From the NCBI RefSeq assembly GCF_918731615.1, contig NZ_OU957226.1, positions 682,001-746,000 of the forward strand: a stretch of DNA of 64,000 nt, in the 5' to 3' direction. The notes under the pieces were generated by a model. It saw nothing but the letters and a program-made list of their open reading frames with translations. It made no database searches and had not been told where the DNA came from. The stretch comes from Flavobacterium sp. CECT 9288 (GTDB taxonomy: Bacteria; Bacteroidota; Bacteroidia; Flavobacteriales; Flavobacteriaceae). A program made the position numbers and the translations under genes. This document shows, piece after piece, positions 38,460-62,511 of the stretch. Positions within the stretch are counted from its first letter, which is position 1, and each line of letters begins with the position of its first letter.

Positions 38460-40457
38460 TTATTCCTGCATCAAATGCTGTAAATCAGGATCATTCTTAA
38501 TGCGCTCCAATTCCGTTTTAATGACTTGAACAATATCTTGTTTGATTTGTTTATAATTCGTTTCTATTTCCTGCTTCATTTTATCTTCTCCCTGTTCATC
38601 AACAAAGGATAGAATTTCTGGTATCCTCTGATATACTTTAGTTTCTGCTGCAACTTTTTCATTGTCCACTACAATTTCGGCGTGGAATATTTTTTGTTCG
38701 ATGCGTTCTTCAAAATTATCCGAAACAGCACCCACAAACATACCTTGTGTTAGTGTTGAAATTTTGGAAGCTGGAATAAGACTATCTAATTGTGTAGAAA
38801 TGGAAGTTGACGTATCATTTCGGTTGATTGATATACTTTGACGCTTTTGCAATACTTTCCCGAACCTTTCCGAAAGGCTCTTTGCAGTTTCGCCAACTAC
38901 CTGACCCGAAAATATATTGCCCACAGTGTTTTGGATAACCTTTGCTTCTTTATCGCCATAATCCCTTATCAATTGCGAAAAATCTTGAAAACCCAAACAA
39001 ACTGCCACCTTATTACTTCGGGCAGTTGCAATGAGATTATCTAATCCACGAAAGTAAATAGTGGGCAACTCATCAATAATAACAGAACTCTTTAATTGTC
39101 CTTTTTTATTAATGAGTTTGACAATCCTTGAATTGTACAATCCCAAAGCTGCCGAATAAATATTTTGACGGTCGGGATTGTTTCCAACACAAAGGATTTT
39201 CGGTTCTTTGGGATTGTTGATGTCCAGTGAAAAATCATCGCCAGTCATTACCCAATACAATTGTGGCGAAATCATTCTTGATAAAGGGATTTTTGCGGAT
39301 GCAATCTGCCCCTGTAATTGGTCTTGTGCGCCACTTTGCCACGCATCCATAAACGGCGAAAGATAATTTTCCAGATCAGGATATGAAGTAAGGATAGTGA
39401 ATACATCCGAATACTTTTTGTTCAGTAATTCAATGGCGTGTGGAAAGGTGCAGTATTTCCCATTATCATAGATTTTGAGATACCAGATAATTGCTGCTAA
39501 CAAAATAATTGGGCTTTCCACAAAAAAATCGCCCTGCTTTTGTATCCAGCTTCGGTTGAGGTTCAGCATTATAGTATATGCTGCTTCGTAAGCGTCAGAG
39601 ATGTCCGTCATAAAATCTGGATTGAGTGGATTACATCGGTGGCTCTTTCTCGGGTCGTCAAAATTAATGATGTAGAATTTGGGTTGTACTTTATACTTAT
39701 CTCTGTGCTTTAATAAATGATTGTAGGCAATAGTAGAAAGGTCGTCAAACTTGAAATCGTAGATGTACATTGAGAACCCTTTCTCAATCTGTTGCTTGAT
39801 ATAGTTGTTTACAATGGCGTAGGATTTTCCTGAACCTGGCGTTCCTAAAACAATGGTTGCGCGAAAAGGATTGACGATGTTTATCCAGCCTTTATTCCAT
39901 TTGTTTTTGTAATAAAATTTTGTGGGAAGATTGACAGAATATTCATTTTCCATCAATTTGGTTTCCTGCTGAAAGCTTTCGTTTTCATTATTGAAAACAT
40001 CGTCCATCAGGTTGGTGCGAAGTAAACGGCTCATCCAAACGCCAGCTACCATCAAAGCGATGTAGCCTAAACTTGTGGTAAGGACATAAAGGAATGTAGC
40101 TGTGTTTAATGATAACTTTAGTAAAGGTGTGTTCAGAAAAAACAGGACAAAGCCAATTCCCCAAGCCACATAAATTTTAGTCCAAGTTATTTTTTCATTT
40201 TTAACACCTTTGGTTCCCAAACAACTCAAAGCCAGCAATACCAAAGCAAATACTTTGGTATATAAGGTATGCGAAAACAATCCAGCGGTCCGTTGAAAAT
40301 TGCCTAATATTTTGTTGATGAGTTCCAGTGTCCAGCCACGTTCTATAAAGAAACCATAACAAAACCAATAAAGGTGCATCAGTACCAAAAGAATACTGAC
40401 TGCCCGCATAAAAGCCATAATCTTGGCAAGTCCTCTTAAATCATCTTCTCCCTGCAT
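38460..40457 (-). CDS. mobC: Type IV coupling protein (MobC/TraG/VirD4 family)
   Basis: Coupling proteins recruit the relaxosome to the secretion channel and hydrolyse ATP. The 665-residue protein begins with membrane segments in its first 170 residues. The Walker A motif is GTPGSGKSYAIV near residues 203-212 and the Walker B region is VIIDELPTIYF. The substrate-sensing part includes GQVVGETAKSLSERFGK and RIPEILSFVDEQG. In Bacteroidota ICEs this protein is called MobC and follows mobA and mobB, as here. An 87-bp gap separates it from mobB. Confidence 0.93.
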   Translation of the reverse strand: MQGEDDLRGLAKIMAFMRAVSILLVLMHLYWFCYGFFIERGWTLELINKILGNFQRTAGLFSHTLYTKVFALVLLALSCLGTKGVKNEKITWTKIYVAWGIGFVLFFLNTPLLKLSLNTATFLYVLTTSLGYIALMVAGVWMSRLLRTNLMDDVFNNENESFQQETKLMENEYSVNLPTKFYYKNKWNKGWINIVNPFRATIVLGTPGSGKSYAIVNNYIKQQIEKGFSMYIYDFKFDDLSTIAYNHLLKHRDKYKVQPKFYIINFDDPRKSHRCNPLNPDFMTDISDAYEAAYTIMLNLNRSWIQKQGDFFVESPIILLAAIIWYLKIYDNGKYCTFPHAIELLNKKYSDVFTILTSYPDLENYLSPFMDAWQSGAQDQLQGQIASAKIPLSRMISPQLYWVMTGDDFSLDINNPKEPKILCVGNNPDRQNIYSAALGLYNSRIVKLINKKGQLKSSVIIDELPTIYFRGLDNLIATARSNKVAVCLGFQDFSQLIRDYGDKEAKVIQNTVGNIFSGQVVGETAKSLSERFGKVLQKRQSISINRNDTSTSISTQLDSLIPASKISTLTQGMFVGAVSDNFEERIEQKIFHAEIVVDNEKVAAETKVYQRIPEILSFVDEQGEDKMKQEIETNYKQIKQDIVQVIKTELERIKNDPDLQHLMQE

Positions 40458-40544
40458 TATTTTAATTTTTAATGTTCGGGCGTGAATTTAAAAGGTCTAA
40501 AGGGTGGTTATAATAATATGGAACTCATTGGCGGTCTTTGGCTT

Positions 40545-41834
40545 TTATTGACCCTTTTTACGTTTCCGCTTCTTCTTCATTTTATTGGCAAAATCCAGTT
40601 CCTCATAATCTTCGCCCTGCGCTTCGGGTAACAATCCGCCTAATGCTTCAATCAAACCATCTTCGTGTTTTTCATTAGTATTCAGGAAGTCGAATAAATG
40701 ATGAGGTTTTTCAGCAGGTAAATCCTCTATGTTGTTTGATTGAGATAATTTAGTTGGTGGCTCATCAGTTTCCTTGATTTCGGGTTTGATGTTATTTTTC
40801 CAATAATCATTAAAGGTATTGGCAGAAAGTTCTTTTGCTAAACGGGAACCATTCCAGACCATTTTGGAATTATGGTCTATAAAAGTAATTCCATAAATAC
40901 GCTTTGTATCATTTCTTCTTATCACTACATTAATACCTTGGTCTGCCAACTGCTTTTTAAAGTTCAGTTCATCAGATGTAGATTGCAGAGCAATATTGAC
41001 AGCTGATTTTAAAGTCTGTTTAGTTGGGTGGTCTTTTAATCTGGTTTTACTTTTCTCAAATTGCAATTCCAGAGCCAGAAGTCCTGCGTTCTTTCCGAAC
41101 ATAGAAGCCTTGAATGGATGTCCGGCTCTTTCGCCTTCTTCATTTAACGGAATATATAATAAACCCTGCTGAGATTTTCCCTGCAATTCGCCCTCAACTT
41201 TTTCAGTGGTAATATTGAATAACGAAAGCAATGCGTTGTATTCGCCCAATGTCTGGTATTGGTAATAGTTCGGCAAATGGCGAACTACCGAAGCTATCTG
41301 ACTTTTTACATCACCTTTCTGGTAATTCACAGGGCTAAAAATCTTATCGTTCTGCTTGTGTTCCTTATCTGTTGCAGATACCAATCCGTGTTGCCTTTCG
41401 AGTTCTCGGCACACATTCATAGACCGCATTTTCTCAAATTTATCTGAAATTTTTTTGCCTTCTTCATTCACACAAACCGAAACAATATGTATGTGAGTTC
41501 TGTCGATATCAGTATGCTTGAACACGACAAAAGGCTGTTCGCCATAACCCATTTCACGCATATACTGCTCTGCCAACTCCCTAAATTTTTCATCACTAAC
41601 ATTATCTTTCGGGTCGGGATTGAGCGAAATATGCAACGTATGCTTTTCGGTATTTCGATTTGCAATAAGATAAGGCGTAAAAGATTGGCTCAATTGTGCT
41701 ACAGAATAATGCCCGCTTGGTGTTTCAATTATCTTATTGGCAAACAGAATTTGTCCGTTTTCCTTTTCCACTTTAATATTATTGTACGCCAAAGCACCAT
41801 ATAAATTACTGCTTCTTCCAATTTTTGCTATCAT
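40545..41834 (-). CDS. mobB: MobB relaxase
   Basis: The relaxase nicks DNA at oriT and stays bound to the transferred strand. The 429-residue protein has an N-terminal relaxase domain. Tyr12 is a candidate nucleophile; the metal-binding triad HTDIDRTHIHIV has His107, His114 and His116. Motif NTEKHTLHISLNPDPKDNVS is also family-typical. The C-terminus is basic (KMKKKRKRKKGQ). It follows mobA by eight bases in one operon. The C-terminal half, with low similarity to any named domain I recognise, may bind TopB or MobC. Confidence 0.93.
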   Translation of the reverse strand: MIAKIGRSSNLYGALAYNNIKVEKENGQILFANKIIETPSGHYSVAQLSQSFTPYLIANRNTEKHTLHISLNPDPKDNVSDEKFRELAEQYMREMGYGEQPFVVFKHTDIDRTHIHIVSVCVNEEGKKISDKFEKMRSMNVCRELERQHGLVSATDKEHKQNDKIFSPVNYQKGDVKSQIASVVRHLPNYYQYQTLGEYNALLSLFNITTEKVEGELQGKSQQGLLYIPLNEEGERAGHPFKASMFGKNAGLLALELQFEKSKTRLKDHPTKQTLKSAVNIALQSTSDELNFKKQLADQGINVVIRRNDTKRIYGITFIDHNSKMVWNGSRLAKELSANTFNDYWKNNIKPEIKETDEPPTKLSQSNNIEDLPAEKPHHLFDFLNTNEKHEDGLIEALGGLLPEAQGEDYEELDFANKMKKKRKRKKGQ

Positions 41835-41842
41835 TTTTAGAC

Positions 41843-42277
41843 CTATTTTTTTAGATGTTTAGCTTCAAATTCTTCGATTAGTTGAATGATTTTTTGGCAT
41901 AACAATACCATTTCAATCGTCTGTTTTTCCAATTTATAGAGGTAGGCAGATCCTTTTTTCTCTGAAAAATTCTTGTACAATAGCTTTACAACTTGGTTAT
42001 AATTTACACCGACCGAGCGAAATTGACTGTGAAACGAGGTCAATCGCATATAGAAATCAACTGTTCCTTTATCAATTTGAATGGTCTTTATCGTTTTTTC
42101 AAAGATGCAGGACGTTATAAAATGTGCCTTTACCAGCATTCCCGATTGGTCAAAGAGCGAAAGAAATCGGCTGTGCTCTTCTTCATTAAAGGAAATTGTA
42201 TATCTAATCTTCGCCGGGTCTTCTTTAGGTCGGCGTCCGGTCTTTTTTAATTGTTTTCTGTTGTTTTCGTTCATCAC
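41843..42277 (-). CDS. mobA: MobA relaxosome accessory protein (ribbon-helix-helix type)
   Basis: The 144-residue protein has a basic N-terminus (RKQLKKTGRRPKEDPAKIRY), then a ribbon-helix-helix-like stretch (TISFNEEEHSRFLSLFDQSG) and a C-terminal helical part with VDFYMRLTSFHSQFRSVGVN and VVKLLYKNFSEKK, typical of MobA/BmgB-type nicking accessory proteins. It would bind the oriT region and help MobB to nick. It is the first gene of mobA-mobB-mobC. The oriT candidate lies just upstream at 42339-42394. Confidence 0.87.
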   Translation of the reverse strand: MMNENNRKQLKKTGRRPKEDPAKIRYTISFNEEEHSRFLSLFDQSGMLVKAHFITSCIFEKTIKTIQIDKGTVDFYMRLTSFHSQFRSVGVNYNQVVKLLYKNFSEKKGSAYLYKLEKQTIEMVLLCQKIIQLIEEFEAKHLKK

Positions 42278-42969: not shown

Positions 42970-43737
42970 ATGAATACAAAACACAAAACAGTATTTATCG
43001 CCTTTTCATCTCAAAAAGGCGGTGTGGGAAAAAGTACATTTACAACATTGGTAGCAAGTACGATGCACTATCGGTTAGGCTATAATGTAGCCGTATTTGA
43101 TGCCGATTTCCCCCAGCACAGCCTGATGAAAATGAAGGTACGTGATTTGGCGATGGTAATGGAAAACGAAGCTTTAAAAAAGCTGGCTTACAAACAATTT
43201 ACCACCATCAACAAAAAAGCCTATCCGATTATGCAATCCAAAGCTGATAGCGTATTGGAAACCGCTCACGAATTTTTAAGTAGTTCTTCAGTACCTATTG
43301 ATGTGGTCTTTTTTGACCTGCCCGGAACGGTTAACACGCCTGGCATTTTGAATGCACTGGCAGGAATGCACCACATTTTTACACCTATCACGGCAGACCG
43401 AGTGGTAATGGAAAGCACACTGATTTTTACACAGCTTTTGCAGGATGTGATTATGAAAAAAGGCGAAACTTACATAGAAACCATTAACCTGTTTTGGAAT
43501 CAGGTTGATGGTAGAGAAAGTACACCTTTATACGAGGTTTATAACCAACTGATCGAACAATTGGGTTTAAGCCTGATGCAGAGCCAAATCAAAAACAGCA
43601 CCCGTTTTCGCAAAGAAAGTGAAGTCAATAGCAAAGCCGTTTTCCGCTCTACGGTAATGCCACCCGACGAACGCTTGATGAAAGCCAGTCAGTTAGATCA
43701 ATTTATAAACGAGTTTTTAAAAATCATTCAATTATAG
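42970..43737 (+). CDS. traA: TraA, ParA-family ATPase of the conjugative element
   Basis: The 255-residue protein has the deviant Walker A motif SSQKGGVGKSTFTTL near residues 13-27 and a Walker B-type segment DVVFFDLPGTVN. The last part (NSTRFRKESEVNSKAVFRST) matches TraA proteins of CTnDOT-type elements. ParA ATPases usually drive DNA or protein positioning; a role of TraA in transfer or element maintenance is assumed. It is followed by traB after four bases, so they form an operon. Confidence 0.92.
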   Translation: MNTKHKTVFIAFSSQKGGVGKSTFTTLVASTMHYRLGYNVAVFDADFPQHSLMKMKVRDLAMVMENEALKKLAYKQFTTINKKAYPIMQSKADSVLETAHEFLSSSSVPIDVVFFDLPGTVNTPGILNALAGMHHIFTPITADRVVMESTLIFTQLLQDVIMKKGETYIETINLFWNQVDGRESTPLYEVYNQLIEQLGLSLMQSQIKNSTRFRKESEVNSKAVFRSTVMPPDERLMKASQLDQFINEFLKIIQL

Positions 43738-43741
43738 TCTA

Positions 43742-44182
43742 ATGGAAAAAGAAAATAAGAAAAAAAGTACGCCCGATATTAACGAGGAACTGATGATGAG
43801 CCTGATGGTAGATGGTGTAAAAAAAGAGGGATTACAATTACCTGTGGAGCCGATTGTTGAAAGACCCGAAAAGGAAGACATTCAGCCAGAAAAACTACCA
43901 TTGGAGAAACCTGCTGTGAAGGAAAAGACCAAAATTAAAAAAACAAACGAAACAGATTACGAAAGCCTCTTTTTCAAAAGAACAGACACGAATGCCCGAG
44001 ATGGAAAAACGGTATATATCCGACCAGATTTTCACGAAAAATTGTCACGAATTGCACAAGTAATCGGTGAAGACAAAATAACCATTTACGGCTATTTAGA
44101 TAATTTGCTGGACTACCATTTTCAGGAATTTGGCGAGCAGATTACCAAGAGTTTTAATGATAAATACAAACCCATTTTATAA
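43742..44182 (+). CDS. traB: TraB-type DUF3408 protein
   Basis: The 146-residue protein has a charged, Lys/Glu/Pro-rich N-terminal half (residues 1-75), then a DUF3408 domain with VYIRPDFHEKLSRIAQVIGE and ITIYGYLDNLLDYHFQEFGE. DUF3408 proteins of conjugative elements act with ParA-like TraA and may be DNA-binding ribbon-helix-helix partners, similar to ParB in partition pairs. This fits their position directly after traA. In CTnDOT two such proteins (TraB, TraC) occur; here only one is found, so the B/C name is uncertain. Confidence 0.85.
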   Translation: MEKENKKKSTPDINEELMMSLMVDGVKKEGLQLPVEPIVERPEKEDIQPEKLPLEKPAVKEKTKIKKTNETDYESLFFKRTDTNARDGKTVYIRPDFHEKLSRIAQVIGEDKITIYGYLDNLLDYHFQEFGEQITKSFNDKYKPIL

Positions 44183-44185
44183 GTT

Positions 44186-44821
44186 ATGGAAATAGTAATT
44201 GTGATATGCCTGCTGATTGTGATTGCCCTGCTTCTGCAGGACAAGATTGTAATCAAAAAAAGTTCAGAAAGAAAACCAATACAGAAAAAAGGCAACCCTA
44301 AACTGCTCGATATTATGGGACAACCTAGACCTAAGAGAAGCCTTTCGATGCCAAACAATGCCACTGAAAGCCAAGTTGAAGAACTGGAAATTAATCCTGA
44401 TACTTTTGACATAGAATACGACGAAAATGAAAACGTCGGCATTCAAATTCCGCAGGAAGAGCTGGACAAAATTTTCAGAAATAGGCCTGATTTTGAAGAA
44501 GAGGAAGAAGAATGGAACATGTATAAATTATCCGATGGTGGTAACGGTTTTGCCCAAGGTGTTACTTTTGAAGAACTAAATTCTGTGGGGGAGCTGCTTC
44601 AGAAAGACAAATGGGAGCCAATCCAAAAGGAAACAGCGGTTGCCATTGTACAGAAAATACATGGAACCGAATTGTTCAACCTACTGGAGAATTCTATCGA
44701 AGGTGCTTCTCGTAAAATAACTGATTTATTGGACAATAGCTTTTCTTCTGAAACGGAAACTGGTTCTTCCATTTTGCGGAAAAATGATTTCGAGGATTTT
44801 GACATTGGGGAGTTTGTGTAA
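44186..44821 (+). CDS. traD: TraD-like conjugal transfer protein
   Basis: The 211-residue protein has an N-terminal membrane helix (IVIVICLLIVIALLLQDKIVI), a basic linker (KSSERKPIQKKGNPKLLDIM) and a large acidic region (EEEEEEWNMY). The C-terminal half is helical (TAVAIVQKIHGTELFNLLEN). This corresponds in position and layout to TraD of Bacteroidota elements, which has no known activity. It ends the traA-B-D group; the restriction/defence island begins 145 bp later on the opposite strand, separating it from traE. Confidence 0.78.
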   Translation: MEIVIVICLLIVIALLLQDKIVIKKSSERKPIQKKGNPKLLDIMGQPRPKRSLSMPNNATESQVEELEINPDTFDIEYDENENVGIQIPQEELDKIFRNRPDFEEEEEEWNMYKLSDGGNGFAQGVTFEELNSVGELLQKDKWEPIQKETAVAIVQKIHGTELFNLLENSIEGASRKITDLLDNSFSSETETGSSILRKNDFEDFDIGEFV

Positions 44822-44966: not shown

Positions 44967-47900
44967 TTATAACTGACCACCAACACCTTTAAATTTTTCT
45001 ACGAAAGTGGCTATTTTTTGAAAAACACTTTGCTTTTTAGTCAAATATTGAGGATTTAAAGGACTCATTTTAGGTAATACGGTATTGAGTTCTGTTCCAT
45101 TTTCATTGGCAAATTCTCGCTTTAAAGATGCTGTAATGTATCGTTTTGCTGCTGCTTCATTTAAATTTTCCTCTACAATTAATTCGTAAACCTCTTTTTT
45201 CTGTTTTTCCTGTGCATATTTGAAGAAAGAATCTATAACATTGGCTTTATCTTGAATAACCTCAAGGTCTGTTTCATTAATAAAATCTACCACTAAACTT
45301 TCTTTTGCTCTGTTTCCAATACTTGCTCTAATTACTCTTCGGATTTCTTCTATCAAAGTGGCTTTGTCTTTGTTCTTTTTCTTATGCTCAAAAATCAATT
45401 CAAGGATATAATCCAAATTTATTTCTTGAGATTTAAGCAAGTCTATTTCAAAAACTACTTCATCCCAATCGATAGTTGATTCTTCTGATTCTTTGCCGTT
45501 TTTTTCACGTCTTAACCAATCACGTATGTCATTATACGTAGAACGGTAATCTTGGATTGTTCTTTCTGGAAGCAAGCTAATCTCTTGCATGATTGCTAAT
45601 TCTTCGTCTGTTACAAAATTAGATTCTTTGAACGCTTCCAGAGCTTCAACATCCTTAATATCTATTGTTTGAAGTGCTTTAAGATTGTTGAACTCATCGT
45701 AATTTTGCAATATGTTTTCTACACGCAAGTACTCTCCGAATAGTTTTGAGAAATCTTTTTTGTCTTTTTCTGTTTCTATTTCATCAGGGGATGGGAACTT
45801 TTCATTTAACTCTTTTACAACATCGATAAAACCTCTTCGCGCTTCTCCTGAAGCAATATCTGTAAAACCTTCTAAATATTCTTTGTAGCTCTTTTCGAGT
45901 ACTACGTTTTTAGTGTTTTTATCCCCAAATAAAGTTATGGCATCCACAGTAGCCTTTTCTAAATCTCTGAAAGTGATAATGTTTCCGAAAGTTTTTGTGG
46001 CATCATAAATCCTGTTGGTACGGGAAAAGGCTTGCATTAATCCGTGATAACGTAAATTCTTATCAACAAATAATGTGTTTAATGTCGGCGCATCAAACCC
46101 TGTAAGAAACATTCCGACAACTATAATTAAGTCGACTTCTTTACTTTTTACACGTTTGGCAAGGTCACGATAGTAGTTCTGAAATTCTTTGCTTTCTACA
46201 CCAAAACTTGTTTTAAATAGTGCATTATAGTCGTTAATCGCTTTGGTCAAAAATTCTTTGGCGGTGCTATCCATAGCAGAAGGCTCAAAGTTTTCGTCAG
46301 GTATTTCACCAATGGCACTTTGCTCTTCATTGGCTGCAAAAGAAAATATTGTTGCAATTTTTAAAGGTTTTTCATTGTCTTTTTGAAGTTTCATTAACTC
46401 TTCATAATAACACTTAGCTGCTATTACGCTACTGACTGCAAACATGGCATTAAAACCACTATTTCCTGCCTGATTTCTATGTGTTTTTATTCTGTAATTA
46501 TTTAGAATGTATTGCGAAACCTCTTTGATACGAGCAGGATGAAGCAATGCCTTAGTGTTTTCCGCAGCAGATAATTTTTTCTCATCCACTTCTGTTTCCA
46601 TCGCTTTAAACTGCGGACGTACGTTGTTGTAATCTACTTTGAATTTCAGTACTTTTTCGTCTCTAATAGCATCTGTAATAACATACGAATGCAATTCACG
46701 ACCAAATACAGATGCCGTAGTTTCTGCACCCAAAGCATTTTCAGGAAAGATTGGAGTTCCTGTAAAACCAAATTGATAAAACTTTTTAAATTTTTTGTTC
46801 AAGTTCTTTTGCGCTTCACCAAATTGAGAACGATGTGCTTCATCAAAGATGAATACCACTTGTTTTTGGTATATGGCTAAATCACTTTCCGTTTTCATTA
46901 AGTTGTTCAACTTTTGAATAGTTGTGACTATAATTTTATTGTCCTCCTTTTCAATATTTCTTTTTAAACCAGCTGTACTATCTGAACCGTTTACACTATC
47001 TGGTGAAAATCGTTGGTACTCTTTCATGGTTTGAAAGTCTAAATCTTTTCGATCAACCACAAAGAACACTTTATCAATGAATTCTAATTCAGTAGCTAAA
47101 CGAGCTGCTTTAAAACTGGTCAATGTTTTCCCTGAACCTGTAGTATGCCAAATATAACCACCGCTTTCTACTTTAGACCAATTTTTAGCTTGATACGAAC
47201 TTGAAATTTTCCATAACATTCTTTCTGTAGCTGCTATTTGATACGGTCGCATAATAAGCAAGGTATCACTTGTGTCAAAAACTGAATACGTTAGCAACAC
47301 ATTTAACAAGGTGCGTTTTTCAAAAAAGGTTGTCGTAAAATCTTTAAGGTCTTTAATCAATGTATTATCGGCTTTTGCCCAGTTCATGGTAAAGTCAAAG
47401 CTGTTTTTATTACGCTCTACAGTGTTTGCAAAATAGCGACTGTCTGTTCCGTTTGAGATTACAAAAATCTGTAAGTATTTAAAAAGAGAATTAGTGCTGT
47501 TAAGACTCTCTTTAGTATAACGATGCACTTGGTTAAATGCCTCCCGAATAGCTACACCGCGTTTTTTTAATTCTATTTGAACCAATGGTAAACCGTTGAC
47601 TAAAATGGTAACATCATAGCGATTAGCATGTGTACCTTTTTGCTCAAATTGCTTAATTACCTGAACTTTATTACGCGCAATGTTATTTTTATCTATTAAG
47701 TAAATGTTTTGGATATGCCCATCATCAAAAACAAAATCGTAGATGTAATTTTCATGAATTTTTTTTGTTTTTTCAACAAGATTATCACTTGGTTTATCTA
47801 AATACTCTTCCAAAAAACGAGCCCATTCGCTATCTAAAAATTCCATATTGTTCAGCGCTTGCAATTGTACTCGTACATTAGCCATCATGGCCTCGATAGT

Positions 47901-48071
47901 GTTTAGGTTGGGATTTTCATACCCTTGATTGATTAAGTCTTGGATAAATTCTTTCTCCAAAGCGGCTTCCGTTTGATAAACAGTAGGTGGCTCATTAACC
48001 TCTGAATACTTGGTGTATTTGTCTAAAACAATAAAATTGTTTGATTCTGCTATGGTTTTATACTGTGACAT
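44967..48071 (-). CDS. hsdR: Type I restriction endonuclease subunit R (HsdR)
   Basis: HsdR translocates DNA and cleaves it at a distance from the recognition site. The 1034-residue protein has an N-terminal nuclease region ([20 protein letters not shown], with the catalytic Asp and the Glu-Leu-Lys) and two RecA-like motor domains. Walker A is [14 protein letters not shown] near residue 313 and DEAH is [14 protein letters not shown] near 407. Helicase motif VI is represented by [15 protein letters not shown]-terminal helical part binds the methylase. The start overlaps the upstream PrrC-like gene by 14 bases, implying coupled translation. Confidence 0.95.
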
Positions 48072-49206
48072 CTTCTTCAGTAACTAGTTGGTTATTGTTT
48101 GATTTAAAATTGTATATTTTTATTATTATTTCCCGAACCAAGAAGCGCAACATTCGCTTATCATTATCATCAAGAATGGATATTTCCTCACCATGATGTT
48201 TAGAGTGACTAGACAAATTGATTATTCGCTTGTGATAAGCTTCCCGAGAATCTTGAGGTAGTAGCTGCTCCCAATTATTAAATCCTAGAAAAGTTGAAGT
48301 CTTTTCAAATATATTACGAATAAAATTAAAGTGATATTTTTGAATATCTTCTGATTGCAAAGCTTTTTCCAGTTCTGATAGAAGAAATAAATGATATGAA
48401 AAAGGAGAATCTTTTATTTGCTCTTCTAGGTTAAATGTACCATCTATCAATCTTTCAAGTCGCCATTCTTTAGTTTTTTTTACTCTACTAAATTCATTAA
48501 AAAGGACATTATAGAATAAAGGATTGTGAGTTGTAATTATGAACTCCAAGTCTGATTGGCTTGACTTTATTAATTCAGCAATATTAACAGCCAATTCGAT
48601 TAGATGTGTGTCATCTAACGAACTTACCGGGTCATCAATAAATATATATTTTAAATCATTAAATCGATCGGTTTCACGGTCAGCTTCTTCAGCTACATTT
48701 AAAACAGTAATAGCCTGTTCTAAAAAACTGTAAAAAACACTCCATATAAAACAACTTTCTTCTCCTTTAGAAATCTTAACGAACTCAGAGGGTTCTTCAT
48801 TTCCCCGTTCAAATGAGAAACGAACTTCCGAAAAATCTTCATTAAAACTAGGTGTTAATTTATCACTGGTGTACCGTTGAAAATGAGTTGTTATATTAGG
48901 CTCTTGTCCTTGTTCTACAAGTACCCAATTGGTATAACTATTGGGTTGAATTTTCAACTTCCTATCGGAATCGTTATCCAAATCGTTATCCCAATAAAAT
49001 AAATCTTCGGTAAATGCATTGTAGTACATTATCTTGATTTTTGCTTCTACATCTTCTTCTTGCGCTTCCTGATTTTTGGGTGCTATCAATTCTTTAAATT
49101 CACGTGACAACCGTGTTTTTCCACTGCCATTAAAAGCATAAATTAGTTGCACTTTTTTATTGGCATCTTTAAGAGTTTGTGCTATTTCAGATAATGACTG
49201 TGCCAT
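48058..49206 (-). CDS. PrrC-like ABC-ATPase, anticodon nuclease candidate
   Basis: The 382-residue protein has a Walker A motif (YAFNGSGKT, residues 23-31), an ABC-type signature-like KISKGEE (144-150), Walker [13 protein letters not shown] (188-199) and TTHN (225-228). Its C-terminal third has Arg297 and Glu301 in RNIFE, and His334 in NLSSH. E. coli PrrC (396 residues) has a proposed catalytic triad Arg320-Glu324-His356 with spacings 4 and 32; here they are 4 and 33. PrrC is encoded within hsd clusters, between hsdS and hsdR, and cuts tRNA-Lys when restriction is inhibited. Length, order and triad spacing all fit. Direct tRNA cleavage is inferred, not shown. Confidence 0.7.
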
Positions 49207-49215: not shown

Positions 49216-50403
49216 TTATAAATTATCTTGAGGAAATGTTAATAACAAATCTCTGTAATACTCATATTGTTTTTTTCTTAACGCTATTTCTTTTGGTAAA
49301 CCTTCGCTTAATGAGTTGGTAAGAATGTCGAAATTATCTAAAATTGTAGCTATGCGTTCTTGTTCTTCTTTGGAAGGAATAGGCATTTTAATTTTAGCCA
49401 AATCATCAGCGTTTACACGTCTGACTTTTGTTCCTGTAATCAAAGGCCTTTTTTGTTTTTGAAATTGTTCTGTTTGAAAAAAATAAGCCACATATTTTGG
49501 ATTCAAATTATGACTATAAAAACAAGCATCACTGCTTATTGCTATTTCTTCATCTCCAAGCCACGCAACTGCTTTACATACATCTTCATCGGTTTCACTA
49601 GTGGTTGCTATTACCAAATCTCCATATTTTGCCATTCTCGCTTTCTTCGCAAATTCTTCTGAAACAAAAGACTTGGTTTTATCTGTGTATGTTCCATAGT
49701 AAGTATAGATTTGTCCGTAGTGAATACAACCAACCCCTGTTTCAGAAAAGTCTTTTTTCTGTAAACCACCTCCACGAATAAATTTGCCTATATTTTCATC
49801 CCCCAAAGGTAAATGTTGTACTTTATTTTTATCTAAAGAATACAACTTCTCTCTATAATAACTATATTGCATTTTTCGTGCTGTAAGCTCCGCTGTAAGC
49901 TCCGCTGTAAGCACTGAAAAGGCATCGAGAATTCCAACTATTTTTTGTTGAATTTCAAGCGATTTTTTGGGATTGCTAGGGCATGGAATTGGAATTTGTA
50001 GTTTTAATATTTTATCTCTCTCAATACTATAAGGTGTTGCAGTACGGTTTGATATGTCATAAATGTGTTGTTGTTTATTGATAAGATAAAAATATAAATA
50101 TCGATTTAAAATAATTGATGTATTTGGTATTACGCAAAAACACACATCATTAGCCCAAAATTTTTTAGTTTGCCATTTTACATAACCTGCAGACCCATAT
50201 TGTGCAATTGTAATTGTATTTGACTCCCTATTATAACTGTTAGTGTAACCCATATAACCTACACCACCGCTAACAACTGGATATTGTCCATCTGAAAGTA
50301 AATCATTTTTTGTTATTCTAACACCTCTAATTATTTCCACAACTTGTCCTAGAGTTTTCCATTTTACGACTTCACCATCCAATATTTTTTCTAGATAACT
50401 CAT
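49216..50403 (-). CDS. hsdS: Type I specificity subunit (HsdS)
   Basis: HsdS gives the recognition sequence of the type I enzyme. The 395-residue protein has two target-recognition domains: the first runs to about residue 150 and the second starts after about 190. Each is followed by a helix with the pattern [11 protein letters not shown] and [11 protein letters not shown], which bind HsdM. The central spacer contains [11 protein letters not shown] (residues 166-176), encoded by 12-bp DNA repeats at 49880-49912. Such TAEL repeats set the gap between half-sites in EcoR124-type enzymes. It overlaps hsdM by four bases and leads nine bases into the PrrC-like gene. Confidence 0.94.
49880..49912 (-). 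repeat. 12-bp tandem repeats coding TAEL in hsdS
   Basis: The unit GCTGTAAGCTCC (plus strand) occurs twice, at 49880-49891 and 49892-49903, followed by a partial third unit to 49912. The in-frame repeats code for TAEL, TAEL and TAR. Slipped-strand gain or loss of one unit would change the spacing between the two target domains. Confidence 0.9.
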
Positions 50404-51947
50404 GCTTCAATTTCTTTTATAATGGCATTAATATATGTACGAAGTTTGTCAATTTTTTTTACTGTTTGTTCAACTTCGTTGTTTAATTTCTCAATGTTAA
50501 TTTGCTCTCGATTGTCTTTGGGAGCTACATAGGAACTTACCGATAAATTATAATCATTTTCAGCAATTTTAGTGTTTTCGATAGATTTTGCAACATGTTC
50601 TACATCAACTTTACTATCAAATAACTCCATTATTTTTTCAATATGCCTATCAGTCATCAGATTGTTATTGGTCACCTTCTTGAAGAAATCTTCACCACTG
50701 GCATCAATAAACTGCGTTGTAGTATCGGTCTTATGTTTTGAAAGTACCAAAATGGTTACCGCTATAGATGTTCCATAAAACAAATTAGGAGCTACAGAGA
50801 TGATGGTTTCTACAAAGTTATTATCCACTAAATACTTTCTAATTTTTTGTTCGGCACCACCACGGTAAAAAATACCTGGAAAACAAACTAACGCTGCTCG
50901 TCCTTTACTGGAAAGATAACTCAGTGCATGCAGTACAAATGCAAAATCTGCTTTTGATTTAGGAGCCAGCACTCCAGCTGGAGCAAAGCGGTCATCATTT
51001 ATAAGTGTTGGGTCATCATCTCCAACCCATTTTACCGAATAAGGAGGGTTTGATACAATGGCATCAAAAGGTTTGTCGTCAATAAAGTGAGGGTTGTGAA
51101 GTGTATCGCCTAAGGCTATATTAAATTTGTCGTAGTTGACATTGTGTAAAAACATGTTCATACGAGCCAAATTATACGTTGTATGATTTATTTCTTGTCC
51201 AAAAAATCCTTCTTCAATGATATGAGCATCAAAGTGCTTTTTTGCTTGCAGCAGTAAAGAGCCGGAACCAGCCGCAGGATCATAAATTTTGTTTACTTTT
51301 TCTTGTTTGTGCATTGCCAATTGCGCAATAAGCTTAGACACGTGCACTGGTGTAAAAAACTCACCACCTGATTTACCCGCATTGGCAGCATAATTACCAA
51401 TAAGAATTTCGTAAGCATCTCCAAAAAGATCAATTTGATTGTCTTCAAACTTACCGAAATTTAGTTCTTCAACTCCTTTTAAAACCGATGCTAAACGGCT
51501 ATTTTTATTTTCAACTGTATTCCCTAGTCGTGAACTTGTAGTATCAAAATCGGCAAATAAACCTTTTATATCCTCTTCTGACGGATACCCATTTGCGGAA
51601 CTTTCAATTGCTGTAAAAATGGCTTTTAAATCTGTATTTAGGTTTGGATTAGTATTAGCCGTTTTAGCAATATTTACATAAAGTTGACTAGGATAGATAA
51701 AATATCCTTTTGTTTTAATTGCATCATCTTTTATTTCTGGTGTAATTACATCATCCGATAAGCTGGCGTAATCAATGCTATCATCACCAGCCTCTATATA
51801 ATTCGTAAAGTTCTCACTAATGTAGCGATAGAAAAGTGTTCCCAATACAAATTGTTTGAAATCCCATCCATCTACAGCCCCACGAACCTCGTTGGCTATT
51901 TTCCAAATTTTGGCTAGTAATTCTGCTCTTTGTGCTGTGCTTGTCAT
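50400..51947 (-). CDS. hsdM: Type I adenine methyltransferase (HsdM)
   Basis: HsdM methylates adenine in the recognition site and with HsdS forms the modification complex. The 515-residue protein has an N-terminal helical domain ([20 protein letters not shown]). Motif [17 protein letters not shown] precedes the AdoMet motif [14 protein letters not shown] near residue 221, and the catalytic motif NPPYSVKW is near 299. A C-terminal helix region follows for HsdS contact. It lies downstream of the nucleotidyltransferase gene, with 69 bp between, so all defence genes may share a promoter. Confidence 0.96.
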
Positions 51948-52016: not shown

Positions 52017-52706
52017 TCAAAGTGTAATTATTTCTATTTTCTCCATCAACATCTGAAATCGTTCCTCTCTAATTAACGGATGGATGTGCATGGCTAAAAT
52101 TTCGTTAGCTTGTGGATGTTTTTTAATGGCTGTAAGTTCTTGCTTGATGTATTGTTTCAAGTCATCTTCACTCGCTAGGATTTCTTCTACTATTGTTGTT
52201 CTATTGTCAATAAGATAGATGATATCTTCGTAGTCATGGCTTCCATAAAAGTCATTTTGCCCTCGGTCTTTGAATGCTTCTAATTTAGTAGCTAGAAAAT
52301 AAGGAGATGGCAATACGTTGATTGTAATTCCTTCGGGCAATTCTATTTGTTGCAAGTATTTGAATCCAGGCTTGTACCATTTATTAGATATGCCAATACT
52401 ACTGTCGTCAGCAGGCATAATGTCTATTGCAATATTTTCAAACTGATAAGAACAGATGGATTGTCCTTGAGGATCTGGATAGAAATTAAGTTCCGCTAAT
52501 CGTTCTTGCATTTGAGTCCATTCATAATAATTAGCTAAGTTAATGGTCATGTCTATATCAGAAGTGGGACGAATTTCTTCTGCAGCAGGATCATCTGTAT
52601 ATAAGCTAATTACTGCTCCTCCAATGAAGACCATCTTTTCATTTAATTGCTTTAAACCTTTCGCCACTTGAGCTACTAATGCCAGATTGATTATTTTATT
52701 ATGCAT
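52017..52706 (-). CDS. Nucleotidyltransferase-fold protein (AbiEii-like)
   Basis: The 229-residue protein has the polymerase-beta-type nucleotidyltransferase signature: GGAVISLYTDDPAAEEIRPT followed by SDIDMTI, and a third acidic residue in IAIDIMPAD. This matches the AbiEii/MenT-like toxin pattern. The gene starts eight bases inside the end of the winged helix-turn-helix gene upstream. Such pairs often form toxin-antitoxin systems, in which an NTase modifies tRNA or another target. The partner is not a typical AbiEi by sequence, so the class is uncertain. It is also possible that it acts as part of the hsd locus regulation. Confidence 0.68.
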   Translation of the reverse strand: MHNKIINLALVAQVAKGLKQLNEKMVFIGGAVISLYTDDPAAEEIRPTSDIDMTINLANYYEWTQMQERLAELNFYPDPQGQSICSYQFENIAIDIMPADDSSIGISNKWYKPGFKYLQQIELPEGITINVLPSPYFLATKLEAFKDRGQNDFYGSHDYEDIIYLIDNRTTIVEEILASEDDLKQYIKQELTAIKKHPQANEILAMHIHPLIREERFQMLMEKIEIITL

Positions 52707-53220
52707 TCAGTATCCTTTTTTCTAATTCTCGTTTTGCCATTTCTTTTTCTCTTACTCTTCCCACTCTAATGGCATCCACTAAAGTTAACAATTCGTATAA
52801 ATCAGTGTCTTTTAATGAAGCTTCCACCATAGTGGGATATAAAGGTTCTATTGCTTGACCACGGTCTAATCCTTTTGCATATGGCCAAACATAGTTATCC
52901 GTTGCTTGAATGATTTTATTTAAAGGTTCCGCTGAATGAGCTGTTAGCATTCCCCTAACCAAAGCTCCTGGTTGTTGCGGAAATGTATAGGCTACACCAT
53001 GAATTAAAAATTCGTTAAAAGCAATTTTATTCACTTTTTTTCGGGCATCATCAATTAGTCCTGCATATTTGGAACGATTTAACGACTGGCTTACTTCCGA
53101 TTGACTCATGCCTAATTCCTGAGCAATAGTATGATGAAACCAAGATTTTTCACCTAGTGCAATTATTTTCAACAAAATTACAATGTCTTGCGGTTTGAGA
53201 TTATTTTTTGCTTGTGCCAT
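52699..53220 (-). CDS. Winged helix-turn-helix regulator or antitoxin
   Basis: The 173-residue protein has a helix-turn-helix in residues 28-60 (HHTIAQELGMSQSEVSQSLN), followed by a wing and a C-terminal half with FPQQPGALVRGMLTAHSAEP. Its gene overlaps the NTase gene by eight bases and begins the whole defence cluster. Upstream DNA has palindromes (53232-53250, 53253-53267 and around 53291), which it could bind to control its own operon. It is probably the antitoxin and repressor of the NTase partner. The family is not one I can name with confidence. Confidence 0.62.
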   Translation of the reverse strand: MAQAKNNLKPQDIVILLKIIALGEKSWFHHTIAQELGMSQSEVSQSLNRSKYAGLIDDARKKVNKIAFNEFLIHGVAYTFPQQPGALVRGMLTAHSAEPLNKIIQATDNYVWPYAKGLDRGQAIEPLYPTMVEASLKDTDLYELLTLVDAIRVGRVREKEMAKRELEKRILNA

Positions 53221-53490: not shown

Positions 53491-53796
53491 ATGAAAAAAC
53501 AAAGTAAAAAAGTATTGGTGGCAGTCATTGCATTGCTATCAGGAATGGGTGTTTTCGCACAGGGAAATGGTACTGCTGGAATTACCGAAGCAACCCAAAT
53601 GGTAACCTCTTATTTCGACCCAGCAACCCAACTCATTTACGCCATTGGCGCTGTAGTAGGTCTTATTGGAGGTGTTAAAGTGTACAACAAATTTAGTTCA
53701 GGTGATCCTGATACAAGCAAAACGGCGGCTTCGTGGTTCGGTGCGTGTATCTTCTTGATCGTTGCGGCCACTGTTCTACGTTCATTCTTCCTTTAA
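53491..53796 (+). CDS. traE: TraE (DUF4134), small membrane protein
   Basis: The 101-residue protein has a signal peptide-like N-terminus (VLVAVIALLSGMGVFAQ) and two further hydrophobic segments (LIYAIGAVVGLIGGVKVY and FGACIFLIVAATVLRSF). The size and position (first of the tra channel genes) match TraE of CTnDOT, which is a VirB2-like pilin candidate. It is followed by traF after 11 bases. Confidence 0.88.
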   Translation: MKKQSKKVLVAVIALLSGMGVFAQGNGTAGITEATQMVTSYFDPATQLIYAIGAVVGLIGGVKVYNKFSSGDPDTSKTAASWFGACIFLIVAATVLRSFFL

Positions 53797-53807
53797 TCTT
53801 TTGACTT

Positions 53808-54140
53808 ATGAGTAATTATAACATCAATAAGGGTATTGGAAAAACGGTTGAATTTAAAGGATTGAAAGCACAATACCTGTTACTTTTCGCAGGTGGATTG
53901 CTCGGCACATTAATCCTCGTGATGTTACTATATGTGATCGGGGTTAATTCCTATATCTGCCTATTACTCTTAACAGGTGGTGCTTCGCTGATAGTGTGGC
54001 AGACCTTTTCACTGAATAGAAGGTACGGCGAACACGGACTAATGAAAGTGGGCGCAAGAAAAAGACATCCCCGATATATCATTTGTCGCAAGGCTGTACA
54101 TCGCTATTTAAAGTTTACTACTAAACCTGATGTACGATGA
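53808..54140 (+). CDS. traF: TraF (DUF4133), VirB3-like membrane protein
   Basis: The 110-residue protein starts MSNYNINKGIGKTVEFKGLK and has two membrane helices (LLLFAGGLLGTLILVMLLYV, CLLLLTGGASLIVWQTF). A conserved cytoplasmic basic tail (RKRHPRYIICRKAV) follows. It is the DUF4133/TraF family, comparable to VirB3. It overlaps traG by four bases, so the two are translationally coupled. Confidence 0.88.
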   Translation: MSNYNINKGIGKTVEFKGLKAQYLLLFAGGLLGTLILVMLLYVIGVNSYICLLLLTGGASLIVWQTFSLNRRYGEHGLMKVGARKRHPRYIICRKAVHRYLKFTTKPDVR

Positions 54141-56641
54141 TAAACACAGCAAAATCCACAACATTGGAAAGCAAGTTTCCTTTATTGGCGGTAGAAAACA
54201 ATTGTATTTTGTCAAAGGATGCGGACATTACTGCCTGCTTTGAAGTGCGTCTACCAGAACTATTTACGGTAGGTTCTGCTGAATATGAAGCTATTCATTC
54301 CGCTTGGCATAAGGCGATTAAAACCTTACCTGATTTTACGATAGTACATAAACAGGATTGGTACATCAAAGAAAATTATGCGCCAGATTTGGCAAAAGAT
54401 GACCAAAGTTTTCTAGCAAAGTCCTACCAACGCCATTTCAATGAACGTCCTTTTCTGAACCATTATTGTTATCTGTTTCTAACTAAAACGAGCAAAGAAC
54501 GTATGCGAATGCAGAGTAATTTCAGTTCGCTTTGCAAAGGAACACTGATACCGAAGGAAATCAGGGATAAGGAAGTGATACATCGCTTTATGGAAGCCAT
54601 TGCACAATTTGAACGTATCGTAAACGATAGCGGATTTATCAAAATGCAACGCCTTACAGAAGACGAAATTATCGGTACGGATGAGAAACAGGGTTTATTG
54701 GAACAATACCTAACATTATCAAAGGAAGCTGGAACACCGATGCAAGACATTGCATTGGGTGGTGAAGAAGTCCGTATCGGTAACAAAAGATTGTGCCTAC
54801 ACACTTTATCTGATACTGACGATTTGCCTGGAACGGTATCTGCTGATACCCGTTTCGAAAAACTTTCTACCGACCGAAGCGACTGCCGTTTGTCGTTCGC
54901 TGCACCTGTGGGATTGCTGTTAAGCTGCAATCACATCTACAACCAGTATTTGTTTTTGGATAACAGCGAAGCCAACCTGCAAAAGTTTGAAAAGTCAGCA
55001 AGGAATATGCACTCATTGGCTCGTTACAGTCGGGCAAATCAAATCAACAAAGAGTGGATAGAAAAGTATTTGAACGAGGCACATAGTTTTGGACTGTCAT
55101 CCATAAGAGCGCATTTCAATATTATGGCTTGGTCAGATGATGCAAACGAACTTAAGCAATTAAAGAATGATTGCGGCAGTGCTTTGGCATTAATGGAATG
55201 CAAACCACGCCACAACACTACAGATGTAGCAACACTGTATTGGGCAGGAATGCCAGGCAATGCAGGCGATTTTCCGAGTGAGGAAAGTTTTTACACGTTC
55301 ATTGAACCTGCTTTGTGTTTTTTCACAGAAGAAACCAATTACCACAATTCGCCATCACCCTTTGGTATCAAGATGGCTGATCGATTGACCGGAAAGCCCA
55401 TCCATTTGGATATCTCGGATTTACCGATGAAACGGGGTATCATCACGAACCGGAACAAGTTTATACTTGGCCCTTCGGGAAGTGGAAAATCGTTTTTCAC
55501 CAACCATATGGTTCGCCAATATTATGAACAGGGTGCTCACGTACTTTTGGTTGATACTGGTAATTCTTATCAGGGTTTATGCGAACTCATTAAAGGCAAA
55601 ACCAAAGGCGAAGACGGTGTTTACTTCACTTATACCGAAGATAATCCGATTGCTTTTAATCCTTTCTACACCGATGATGGCGTGTTTGATATTGAAAAAA
55701 GAGAAAGTGTCAAAACCTTGATACTTACCCTTTGGAAACGTGATGATGAACCACCAACTCGTTCGGAAGAAGTGGCATTGTCCAATGCCGTAAGCGGTTA
55801 CATCGATCGCATTAAACAAGATGCTATTTTTCCATCATTCAATGGTTTCTACGAATACGTAAAAGGCGATTATCGTAAGGTCTTGGAAGAAAAACAGGTA
55901 AGGGAAAAAGACTTTGATATTGCCAATTTCCTCAATGTTTTAGAACCTTATTATAAAGGTGGCGAATATGATTATCTGTTGAATTCTGACAAACAATTAG
56001 ACCTACTTTCCAAACGCTTTATTGTGTTTGAAATTGATGCCATCAAAGACCACAAAATCCTCTTTCCAATCGTGACCATCATCATTATGGAGGTCTTCAT
56101 CAACAAAATGAGAAGGCTGAAAGGTATCCGAAAACTCATTCTAATTGAAGAAGCGTGGAAGGCAATTGCCAAAGAAGGTATGGCGGAATACATAAAATAT
56201 TTGTTTAAAACCGTCCGCAAATTCTTCGGAGAAGCGATTGTTGTAACGCAGGAGGTGGATGATATTATTCAGTCGCCCATTGTCAAAGAAAGTATCATCA
56301 ATAATTCCGATTGTAAAATCCTGCTCGACCAACGTAAGTATATGAACAAGTTCGATGATATACAGGCAATGTTAGGTTTGACTGATAAAGAAAAAGCGCA
56401 GGTACTTTCTATCAATATGAATAACGACCCATCACGGCTTTATAAGGAAGTATGGATTGGCTTGGGCGGAACGCATTCTGCGGTATATGTCACAGAAGTT
56501 AGTTTGGAGGAATATCTCGCATACACCACCGAAGAAACCGAAAAACTGGAAGTGATGCAACTCGCATCCGAACTGGACGGCAATGTAGAACTCGCTATAA
56601 AACACATCGCTATGCAACGGCGTGATAGTGCAAATCAATAG
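54137..56641 (+). CDS. traG: TraG, VirB4-like conjugation ATPase
   Basis: VirB4-type ATPases power assembly and function of type IV secretion. The 834-residue protein has an N-terminal domain with a membrane-associated region and a C-terminal motor domain. Walker A is GPSGSGKSFFTNHMV near residues 445-459; the family motif LLVDTGNSYQGL follows, and Walker B is LILIEEAWKAI near residue 667. Additional motifs include EAIVVTQEVDDI, where a Gln senses nucleotide. It is the largest tra protein of the element. Confidence 0.95.
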   Translation: MINTAKSTTLESKFPLLAVENNCILSKDADITACFEVRLPELFTVGSAEYEAIHSAWHKAIKTLPDFTIVHKQDWYIKENYAPDLAKDDQSFLAKSYQRHFNERPFLNHYCYLFLTKTSKERMRMQSNFSSLCKGTLIPKEIRDKEVIHRFMEAIAQFERIVNDSGFIKMQRLTEDEIIGTDEKQGLLEQYLTLSKEAGTPMQDIALGGEEVRIGNKRLCLHTLSDTDDLPGTVSADTRFEKLSTDRSDCRLSFAAPVGLLLSCNHIYNQYLFLDNSEANLQKFEKSARNMHSLARYSRANQINKEWIEKYLNEAHSFGLSSIRAHFNIMAWSDDANELKQLKNDCGSALALMECKPRHNTTDVATLYWAGMPGNAGDFPSEESFYTFIEPALCFFTEETNYHNSPSPFGIKMADRLTGKPIHLDISDLPMKRGIITNRNKFILGPSGSGKSFFTNHMVRQYYEQGAHVLLVDTGNSYQGLCELIKGKTKGEDGVYFTYTEDNPIAFNPFYTDDGVFDIEKRESVKTLILTLWKRDDEPPTRSEEVALSNAVSGYIDRIKQDAIFPSFNGFYEYVKGDYRKVLEEKQVREKDFDIANFLNVLEPYYKGGEYDYLLNSDKQLDLLSKRFIVFEIDAIKDHKILFPIVTIIIMEVFINKMRRLKGIRKLILIEEAWKAIAKEGMAEYIKYLFKTVRKFFGEAIVVTQEVDDIIQSPIVKESIINNSDCKILLDQRKYMNKFDDIQAMLGLTDKEKAQVLSINMNNDPSRLYKEVWIGLGGTHSAVYVTEVSLEEYLAYTTEETEKLEVMQLASELDGNVELAIKHIAMQRRDSANQ

Positions 56642-56668
56642 TTCATTAATAATTTAAAATTCAAGAAA

Positions 56669-57301
56669 ATGAAAAAAATATTTTTTATGGTATGTACTGT
56701 ATTAACACTTGCAGTAGCACCGTCTGCAAAAGCCCAATGGGTAGTTACAGACCCCACGAACCTAGCTTCAGGTATTCTTAACAGTGCCAACGAAATCATA
56801 CAGACTTCTTCCACTGTGAGTAATGTGATTAAGAATTTCAAAGAAGTAGAAAAAGTATATAAGCAAGGCAAAGAATATTACGACAAACTACAGGCTATAA
56901 ACAACCTTGTAAAAGATGCTCGTAAAGTGCAACTGACTGTTTTGTTGGTAGGCGATGTTTCGGAAATGTATGTAAAAAATTTTGGCAAAATGATGAATGA
57001 CCCCAATTTTTCGCCACAGGAATTGGTAGCCATCGGCAACGGTTATTCAGCATTGCTAAATGAAAGTACGGAACTGCTGAAAGAATTGAAGCAGATCATC
57101 ACCTCATCAAGTCTTTCGCTAAATGACAAAGAGCGAATGGATGTTATCGACCGTGTGTACAAGGAAGTAAAAGACTATCACAGCCTTGTTCGCTATTACA
57201 CCAACAAGAATATCTCTGTAAGCTACCTGAGAGCGAAAAAGAAAAACGATGCCAAGAGAGTGCTTGACTTGTATGGAACTTCTAACCAAAAATACTGGTG
57301 A
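56669..57301 (+). CDS. traI: TraI (DUF4141), exported
   Basis: The 210-residue protein has a signal peptide (MVCTVLTLAVAPSAKAQ) and a long helical body (NEIIQTSSTVSNVIKNFKEV, YKQGKEYYDKLQAINNLVKD, MMNDPNFSPQELVAIGNGYS). It is the DUF4141 family, TraI of CTnDOT-type elements, similar to VirB5 in size and helical nature. traH, a small gene between traG and traI in CTnDOT, is not seen in the 27-bp gap. It overlaps traJ by four bases. Confidence 0.87.
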   Translation: MKKIFFMVCTVLTLAVAPSAKAQWVVTDPTNLASGILNSANEIIQTSSTVSNVIKNFKEVEKVYKQGKEYYDKLQAINNLVKDARKVQLTVLLVGDVSEMYVKNFGKMMNDPNFSPQELVAIGNGYSALLNESTELLKELKQIITSSSLSLNDKERMDVIDRVYKEVKDYHSLVRYYTNKNISVSYLRAKKKNDAKRVLDLYGTSNQKYW

Positions 57302-58299: not shown

Positions 58300-58320
58300 A
58301 CAACATTAATCACTTAAGAA

Positions 58321-58944: not shown

Positions 58945-58955
58945 AACCCAAGATT

Positions 58956-59387: not shown

Positions 59388-59408
59388 TAGCCAATAATAA
59401 TTTAAGAC

Positions 59409-59696
59409 ATGAAAAAATTAAGAGCAAATATGGATAGGTATTTTAACAAGTTGGACGAACGATGGCGGGCATTACCCGTTGGAAAACAGCATAAATACAC
59501 CTTATACTTTTTTATAGGCTATCTACTGCTTACCGCAGGAGTTATTTTAAAAGTATGGTATGATGCAGGCAAAGCCGATAACAATTTGGTCATTGAGCAT
59601 ATCGAAAATCCTGTTCTCAAAAAGAAAGAAAGTCCTGAAAAGCTGAAGGACACATTGACAACAATTTTTAAAAATAAATTTTATGAAAGAAAATGA
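59409..59696 (+). CDS. traL: TraL (DUF3989), membrane protein
   Basis: The 95-residue protein has one membrane helix (YTLYFFIGYLLLTAGVILKVW) and charged ends. It starts MKKLRANMDRYFNKLDERWR, typical of the DUF3989/TraL family. It overlaps traM by 14 bases, so translation is coupled. Confidence 0.86.
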   Translation: MKKLRANMDRYFNKLDERWRALPVGKQHKYTLYFFIGYLLLTAGVILKVWYDAGKADNNLVIEHIENPVLKKKESPEKLKDTLTTIFKNKFYERK

Positions 59697-60999: not shown

Positions 61000-61023
61000 T
61001 ATTGAACTCAAATAATTAAGAAA

Positions 61024-61917: not shown

Positions 61918-61938
61918 TAACCCTTTTAAAGTAATAAT

Positions 61939-62499: not shown

Positions 62500-62511
62500 A
62501 AACGTATAATA

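Follow-up and report, generated by a model that had tools for sequence, protein, structure and literature searches.

A 64,000-nucleotide stretch of Flavobacterium sp. CECT 9288 (contig NZ_OU957226.1, positions 682,001 to 746,000 of the forward strand; the whole stretch is called the window here) carries a gene which, with a probability of about 0.9, encodes a PrrC-family anticodon nuclease in a type IC restriction operon, the operon being cargo of a Flavobacterium conjugative element. The analysis documents the gene, its homology and motifs, the folds of its domains (by model), the operon and the surrounding integrative and conjugative element (ICE). A preliminary description of this DNA had proposed a PrrC-like anticodon nuclease in an ICE-borne type I restriction locus, and profile, catalytic triad and operon position agree with it at the level of sequence. 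The features of the operon are as follows.

44967..48071, minus strand: hsdR, 1034 amino acids, with the EcoR124-type C-terminal domain PF12008 (E 3e-73) and a match to TIGR00348
48058..49206, minus strand: prrC, an open reading frame of 382 amino acids with an ATG start, identified by the PADLOC PrrC model, AAA_13, structure models and fold matches
48202..48318, minus strand: residues 297-335 of PrrC, with R297, E301 and H334 (the published triad) and the HEPN-type pair R327-x6-H334, invariant in 91/91 rows
48382..48435, minus strand: residues 258-275 of PrrC, which in the alignment lie opposite the Lys-anticodon-recognising peptide of E. coli PrrC, 284-294 (xDS--PFSYH against GDSNKSFSYH)
49216..50403, minus strand: hsdS, 395 amino acids, identified by Methylase_S (Pfam) and the PADLOC search
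49880..49912, minus strand: a 12-base tandem repeat of 2.8 copies inside the hsdS coding sequence
50400..51947, minus strand: hsdM, 515 amino acids, matching TIGR00497 (E 8e-194)

The operon order is hsdM-hsdS-prrC-hsdR. The prrC start lies 9 bases past the end of hsdS, and the overlap with hsdR covers 48058-48071 in the list of open reading frames. A 382-residue ATPase between hsdS and hsdR, with a 14-base hsdR overlap, had been noted before; the coordinates agree, and the strand (minus) is newly added. On the plus strand of 48058..49206, stop codons interrupt the frame read. Judging from its genes, the hsd system is most likely of type IC, because HsdR carries PF12008, HsdM matches TIGR00497 and hsdS contains the 12-base repeat, which we take to resemble the repeats of EcoR124-type HsdS. 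Type IC is also the class of E. coli EcoprrI, the host system of PrrC (PMC3014915).

The arrangement is common among relatives. In a set of 82 related loci (80 picked by likeness to the window, and two plasmids), hsdS is directly upstream and hsdR directly downstream of prrC in 79; two of the exceptions end at a contig edge, and the third has about 1 kb before hsdR. The exact 14-base overlap recurs in 18 of the 82. In five loci (L003, L004, L016, L069 and L078), hsdM and an hsdS-like part form a single open reading frame of 704-737 amino acids upstream of prrC. The host is a Flavobacterium also by the named relatives of a ParB encoded in the neighbouring chromosome. Its genome contains one full-length PrrC; a second site scores 20 bits. 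No relative was found in phage records by tblastn at E 1e-5.

Membership of the family was supported by the profile search that the preliminary description had suggested. The PADLOC PrrC model PDLC02360 covers residues 3-378 (E 3e-140, 465 bits) and Pfam AAA_13 matches above its cut-off, while NCBIfam gave no match. The PADLOC match alone does not fix the subgroup, because this model also covers two groups at a greater distance. More specific information comes from L081, a 396-residue E. coli plasmid protein annotated as an anticodon nuclease, to which the window PrrC is 53.5% identical. L081 carries K284-Y294 (KYGDSNKSFSY), D287, R320, E324 and H356 at the published PrrC positions, and D266, R297, E301 and H334 of the window protein align with D287, R320, E324 and H356. 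The triad Arg297/Glu301/His334, pointed out earlier with its spacing of 4 and 33, is therefore present and aligned with R320/E324/H356. Its residues are identical in all 83 rows of a first alignment and, together with D266 and R327, each invariant in all 91 rows of a wider one (window included in both). R327 should be added beside R297, E301 and H334 in the predicted triad description. The spacing R327-x6-H334 fits the HEPN motif R-x4-6-H, which is the ground on which PrrC has been placed among the HEPN nucleases (PMC3710099).

The protein consists of an ABC ATPase domain at about residues 1-255 and a HEPN-like nuclease domain at about 258-365. The Walker motifs and the signature KISKGEES are present. 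PrrC proteins have a 15-residue PrrC box in the N-domain; in the alignment, residues 61-75 are among the most conserved. In the structure models, the N-terminal domain matches a Rad50/SMC-type ATPase head. The C-terminal domain, modelled alone, appears as a helical bundle whose best VIA-align 2 match is a HEPN toxin, so the model does not place the C-terminus in an unrelated fold, an outcome the preliminary description had named as telling against its proposal. A sequence look-up in the PDB found no PrrC structure; two matches appeared up to E 1, the best at 0.32.

In E. coli, PrrC is kept latent by the hsd enzyme, and loss of the enzyme's activity on unmodified DNA, with nucleoside triphosphate (NTP) hydrolysis, leads to cutting of tRNA-Lys (PMC3014915). 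We infer latency, trigger and tRNA-Lys target for the window system by analogy with this case. PrrC would be held latent by the assembled hsd enzyme until a phage protein or another insult disabled that enzyme on unmodified DNA. The Rad50-like domain would then hydrolyse NTP and so free the HEPN domain, which would cut the anticodon loop of tRNA-Lys(UUU), and translation and phage growth would stop.

The tRNA target is, by the same analogy, probably tRNA-Lys UUU. This is supported because the D287 equivalent is kept, tRNA-Lys(UUU) is present in the host, and tRNA-Lys is the substrate even of the distant PrrC170 of Klebsiella quasipneumoniae, which shares only 35% identity with E. coli PrrC (PMC11555353). 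Two tRNA-Lys(UUU) genes were found in the host genome, and no tRNA-Lys(CUU) gene was found among 66 tRNA matches, of which at least one (C1:3436566) is unread. A K. quasipneumoniae plasmid protein that was fetched for comparison is 32-34% identical to L081, has the order hsdS-prrC-hsdM, and falls outside the group of window and E. coli proteins, a branch with support 1.0. If PrrC170 is of the same kind as this protein, the window PrrC lies between two tRNA-Lys cutters.

Several points weigh against this reading of the gene and its target. The recognition stretch of the window, DS--PFSYH, keeps FSYH and the D287 equivalent but is two residues shorter than the DSNKSFSYH of E. coli and lacks SNKS, and according to a review, the variability of this stretch means that substrates may differ (PMC3014915). 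PrrC170 is placed tentatively in one clade with the fetched Klebsiella protein, on the grounds of the species, the 32-34% identity and the order hsdS-prrC-hsdM; the fetched locus contains two further genes between hsdR and hsdS that are not named in the gene list of the PrrC170 paper. A Foldseek search with the C-domain model gave nothing significant (best E 0.76), so the HEPN match comes from VIA-align 2 only. Finally, the activity of the window PrrC is predicted from homology, which would also suit a degenerate or non-toxic ATPase that only regulates the hsd enzyme; the PrrCs of Neisseria and Xanthomonas are reportedly non-toxic in yeast. Set against every catalytic and ATPase residue checked being intact, in an open frame, such a loss of toxicity seems very improbable. 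A wobble-excising nuclease of the RloC type is harder still to credit. RloC shares the superfamily, and the Joint Genome Institute (JGI) names some relatives 'wobble nucleotide-excising tRNase', but RloC proteins have 658-897 amino acids, a coiled-coil/zinc-hook insert and rare linkage to restriction-modification (R-M) genes (PMC2610378). The window protein, in contrast, has 382 amino acids without such an insert, contains no CXXC in its open reading frame and lies inside an hsd operon; with the PrrC model, the longer proteins of the 700-residue class in the genome searches reached no more than about 56 bits, where the window PrrC scored 469. Its length, the missing hook and the operon context led us to reject an identity as RloC.

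The alternative that deserves most attention accepts a PrrC-type nuclease under the same hsd control, with an SP-type stretch that cuts another tRNA, or tRNA-Lys with another wobble modification. It would account for the replacement of GDSNKSFSYH by DS--PFSYH and agrees with the published remark on substrate variation (PMC3014915). The window C-domain is 39-45% identical to ten E. coli-type C-domains and 54-99% identical to 80 SP-type ones, and yet the HsdR proteins of seven E. coli-type loci are 81-90% identical to that of the window over residues 30-440. On the other side, D266, the equivalent of the wobble-contacting D287, is invariant not only in 91/91 rows but also in 8/8 rows of the PFFHH type. 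The PrrC of Streptococcus mutans is an anticodon nuclease (PMC3014915), and among 120 relatives of an Enterococcus PrrC, a list in which S. mutans itself was not seen, 117 are SP-type by motif. The more distant PrrC170 cuts tRNA-Lys as well (PMC11555353). We consider a different substrate unlikely, and tRNA-Lys remains the preferred target of the window PrrC.

The distribution of the family helps to place the SP-type stretch. At least 8000 homologues scored at E <= 0.001, not all of which need be PrrC. In an even draw of 395 Bacteroidota genomes, 72 give some match to the PrrC model; in 23, that of the window among them, the match is full-length, at 290 bits or more. Eight of the 23 have hsdS upstream and hsdR downstream: seven are SNKS-type, that is, E. 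coli-type, and one, the window, is SP-type; in three of the eight (L138-L140) 761-815 bases separate prrC from the start of the hsdR match. In the remaining 15, a different hsdM (30-37% identical) follows prrC; it overlaps prrC or lies within 12 bases of it in 14 cases and is 671 bases away in the last. Two other recognition stretches occur in these 15 (in 4 and 11). The excess of SP-type proteins in the likeness-picked 80 loci, and in counts of 119/120 and 117/120, says nothing of frequency because these were picked by likeness.

Two further PrrC groups (L145-L159, L167, L168, L186 and L187) lie mostly directly upstream of the different hsdM. One has the stretch DT--PFFHH; the other consists mostly of proteins of 356-361 amino acids, often with VFLYH. 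Both keep R, E and H in 19/19 rows. The D287 equivalent is absent from the farther group (often VFLYH) in 11/11 rows, and R327 is absent in 9/11 and kept in 2/11. The two extra residues appear to be a gain in the SNKS-type, because the other groups lack them too. In a tree of 50 rows, the window and E. coli-type branch is a split with support 1.0, the SNKS-type proteins group with 1.0, and the SP-type proteins are not a clade. On another Flavobacterium contig (L218-L219, G411:C31), tra genes lie about 17 kb from a PFFHH-type PrrC in the order hsdR-hsdS-prrC-hsdM.

Evolutionary information of another kind may be found in the trees of the separate domains. When only C-domain columns were used, the SNKS-type C-domains formed one clade with support 99 (10 of 91 rows). 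This tree left out the recognition columns and had only 88 columns, and the long branch of L142 raised a warning. A single clade of SNKS-type N-domains was rejected by the approximately unbiased (AU) test, at p 0.006 with 91 rows and 0.004 with 47 rows; a mixture model applied to residues 1-180 of 37 rows gave p 4.7e-9. Their HsdR partners were likewise rejected as one clade (AU p 2e-4; 47 rows, 7 of them SNKS-type), though the well-supported branches of the HsdR tree force only two changes. The row sets of the trees were 50, 47/83, all 91 and 37/91 (L140 was omitted as nearly identical to L138). The SNKS group was defined by motif before the N-domain and HsdR trees, and the pattern of L040 described next was known before testing. 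Few C-domain columns and unequal rates are caveats on any exchange.

The PrrC of L040 (L040:10001-11122) is a natural hybrid, its N-domain and its C-terminal nuclease domain coming from different lineages. Over residues 1-204 it shares 85% identity with L005 and with L007, but 47% over 229-361; against L143 the values are 65% and 82%. At the DNA level, the change-over lies at about codons 181-211, at Walker B. L141 has a similar drop in identity, against L054. A matched pair is provided by L220, from another Flavobacterium (prrC at L220:7578-8711), which has the same ICE site and the same operon in the same orientation. Its HsdR is 91% identical to that of the window, while its PrrC is 51% identical and SNKS-type; no match to the AbiE-like pair of the window, described below, was found at this site.

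These patterns are most simply read as recombination within hsd operons. We tentatively raise the possibility, still a doubtful one, that the C-terminal tRNA-recognising HEPN domain is an exchangeable cartridge, which recombination near Walker B transfers from one N-domain and hsd operon to another, leaving the ATPase and the restriction partner in place. If this were true, the tRNA-contacting part of PrrC would be exchanged between cassettes with a conserved regulator, and the SP-type cartridge of the window ICE might read another anticodon or wobble modification than the SNKS-type. The question of tRNA choice would then be directly testable with natural hybrids and with matched pairs, in which a shared ICE site and HsdR proteins 91% identical go with different PrrCs. 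Exchange of the nuclease domain may be new. No report of it in PrrC was found in a limited literature, and one is possible in uncovered work on the recognising peptide or on PrrC mutagenesis; the two 'domain swap' passages in PMC12707154 concern other proteins.

The operon and its neighbours belong to an ICE of about 72.9 kb, integrated at a tRNA-Pro gene. Its other features in the window are listed below.

5299..5374, plus strand: tRNA-Pro(UGG), the ICE integration site
38460..42277, minus strand: mobilisation genes of the ICE (coupling protein, relaxase, MobC)
42970..44821, plus strand: traA-, traB- and traD-like genes on one side of the cargo, traA by ParA/CbiA domains
52017..53220, minus strand: an AbiE-like two-gene pair (PADLOC PDC-M21A/B), directly upstream of hsdM in the same cargo block
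53491..62961, plus strand: conjugation genes traE to traQ on the other side of the cargo, with TraG, TraJ, TraM, TraO and TraQ identified by Pfam

The names traA, traB and traD, and the tra letters other than those identified by Pfam, are those that we presume to apply. The length is measured between a repeat starting at 5362 and its recurrence beyond the window, at G000:C1:760223, where a tyrosine integrase adjoins it. The earlier proposal of an ICE in Bacteroidota is upheld by the integrase, relaxase, coupling protein, tra genes of a type IV secretion system and direct repeats flanking the element at tRNA-Pro; its ability to transfer is a prediction. An extra copy of the repeat is found at 5737, and its AT-rich continuation occurs again at G000:C1:759886. 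These extra copies hint at remnants of earlier insertions.

The hsd-prrC block and the AbiE-like pair sit between traD and traE. Among 29 further traD loci of Flavobacterium, each covered with flanks of 1.5 kb, four (L205, L207, L212 and L214) have traE within about 1.1 kb of traD, the matches being broken in L207, and one (L209) has an hsdR there; in the other 24, traE is beyond reach and these are uninformative. Since traE is close to traD in some relatives, the block is cargo, and its site can also be empty. Beyond the window, the same ICE has a cyclic-oligonucleotide-based anti-phage signalling system (CBASS) at L085:10867-14061 (G000:C1:748867-752061), with cyclase, HORMA, TRIP13 and 2TM-type effector genes; the PADLOC matches have E 7e-95 to 7e-126 and the set looks complete. 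The ICE therefore carries at least three defence modules, and one conjugation event could transfer a layered phage defence of hsd-PrrC, CBASS and the AbiE-like pair. Near the left end of the ICE, a 1798-residue protein encoded at 12998-18394 combines an N6-methylase domain with a helicase domain. The region 19309-37727 probably holds metal-resistance cargo: it encodes a multicopper oxidase, a haem-binding protein and two P-type ATPases, of which one has heavy-metal domains.

Among the closest known systems is E. coli PrrC with EcoprrI (prrABCD). Gene order (hsdM-hsdS-prrC-hsdR), type IC partner, triad, ATPase motifs, the D287 equivalent and size (382 against 396 amino acids, through the plasmid copy L081) are alike. 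The window system differs in its identity of 53.5%, in a recognition stretch two residues shorter and without SNKS, in its host (Flavobacterium) and its carrier (an ICE), and in having no known activator. HEPN toxins (the 7ae6 HEPN toxin and AbiV) share the helical-bundle fold of the C-domain model and the R-x6-H pair; they have no ATPase fusion and act with other partners. RloC has a Rad50-like ATPase, a C-terminal nuclease and the same triad, but it is about twice as long, has a zinc hook, excises the wobble base and is rarely found in R-M loci (PMC2610378). PrrC170 of K. quasipneumoniae belongs to the PrrC family and works with type I hsd genes; it differs in the order in which its genes are listed (HsdR, HsdS, PrrC, HsdM) and probably in a recognition stretch of the GDT--PFFHH kind, judging from L186 (PMC11555353). 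An ICE with a prr operon had already been described from Vibrio in 2016: prrABCD of Vibrio alginolyticus ICEValA056-2 likewise joins R-M genes to a putative anticodon nuclease and is ICE cargo (PMC4857294). That element is of the SXT/R391 type and from another phylum, and its PrrD is described there as without similarity to PrrD of E. coli CTr5X, whereas the window HsdR has the EcoR124 C-terminal domain. The window PrrC is ordinary in kind: PrrC in hsd loci has long been known, and relatives are common.
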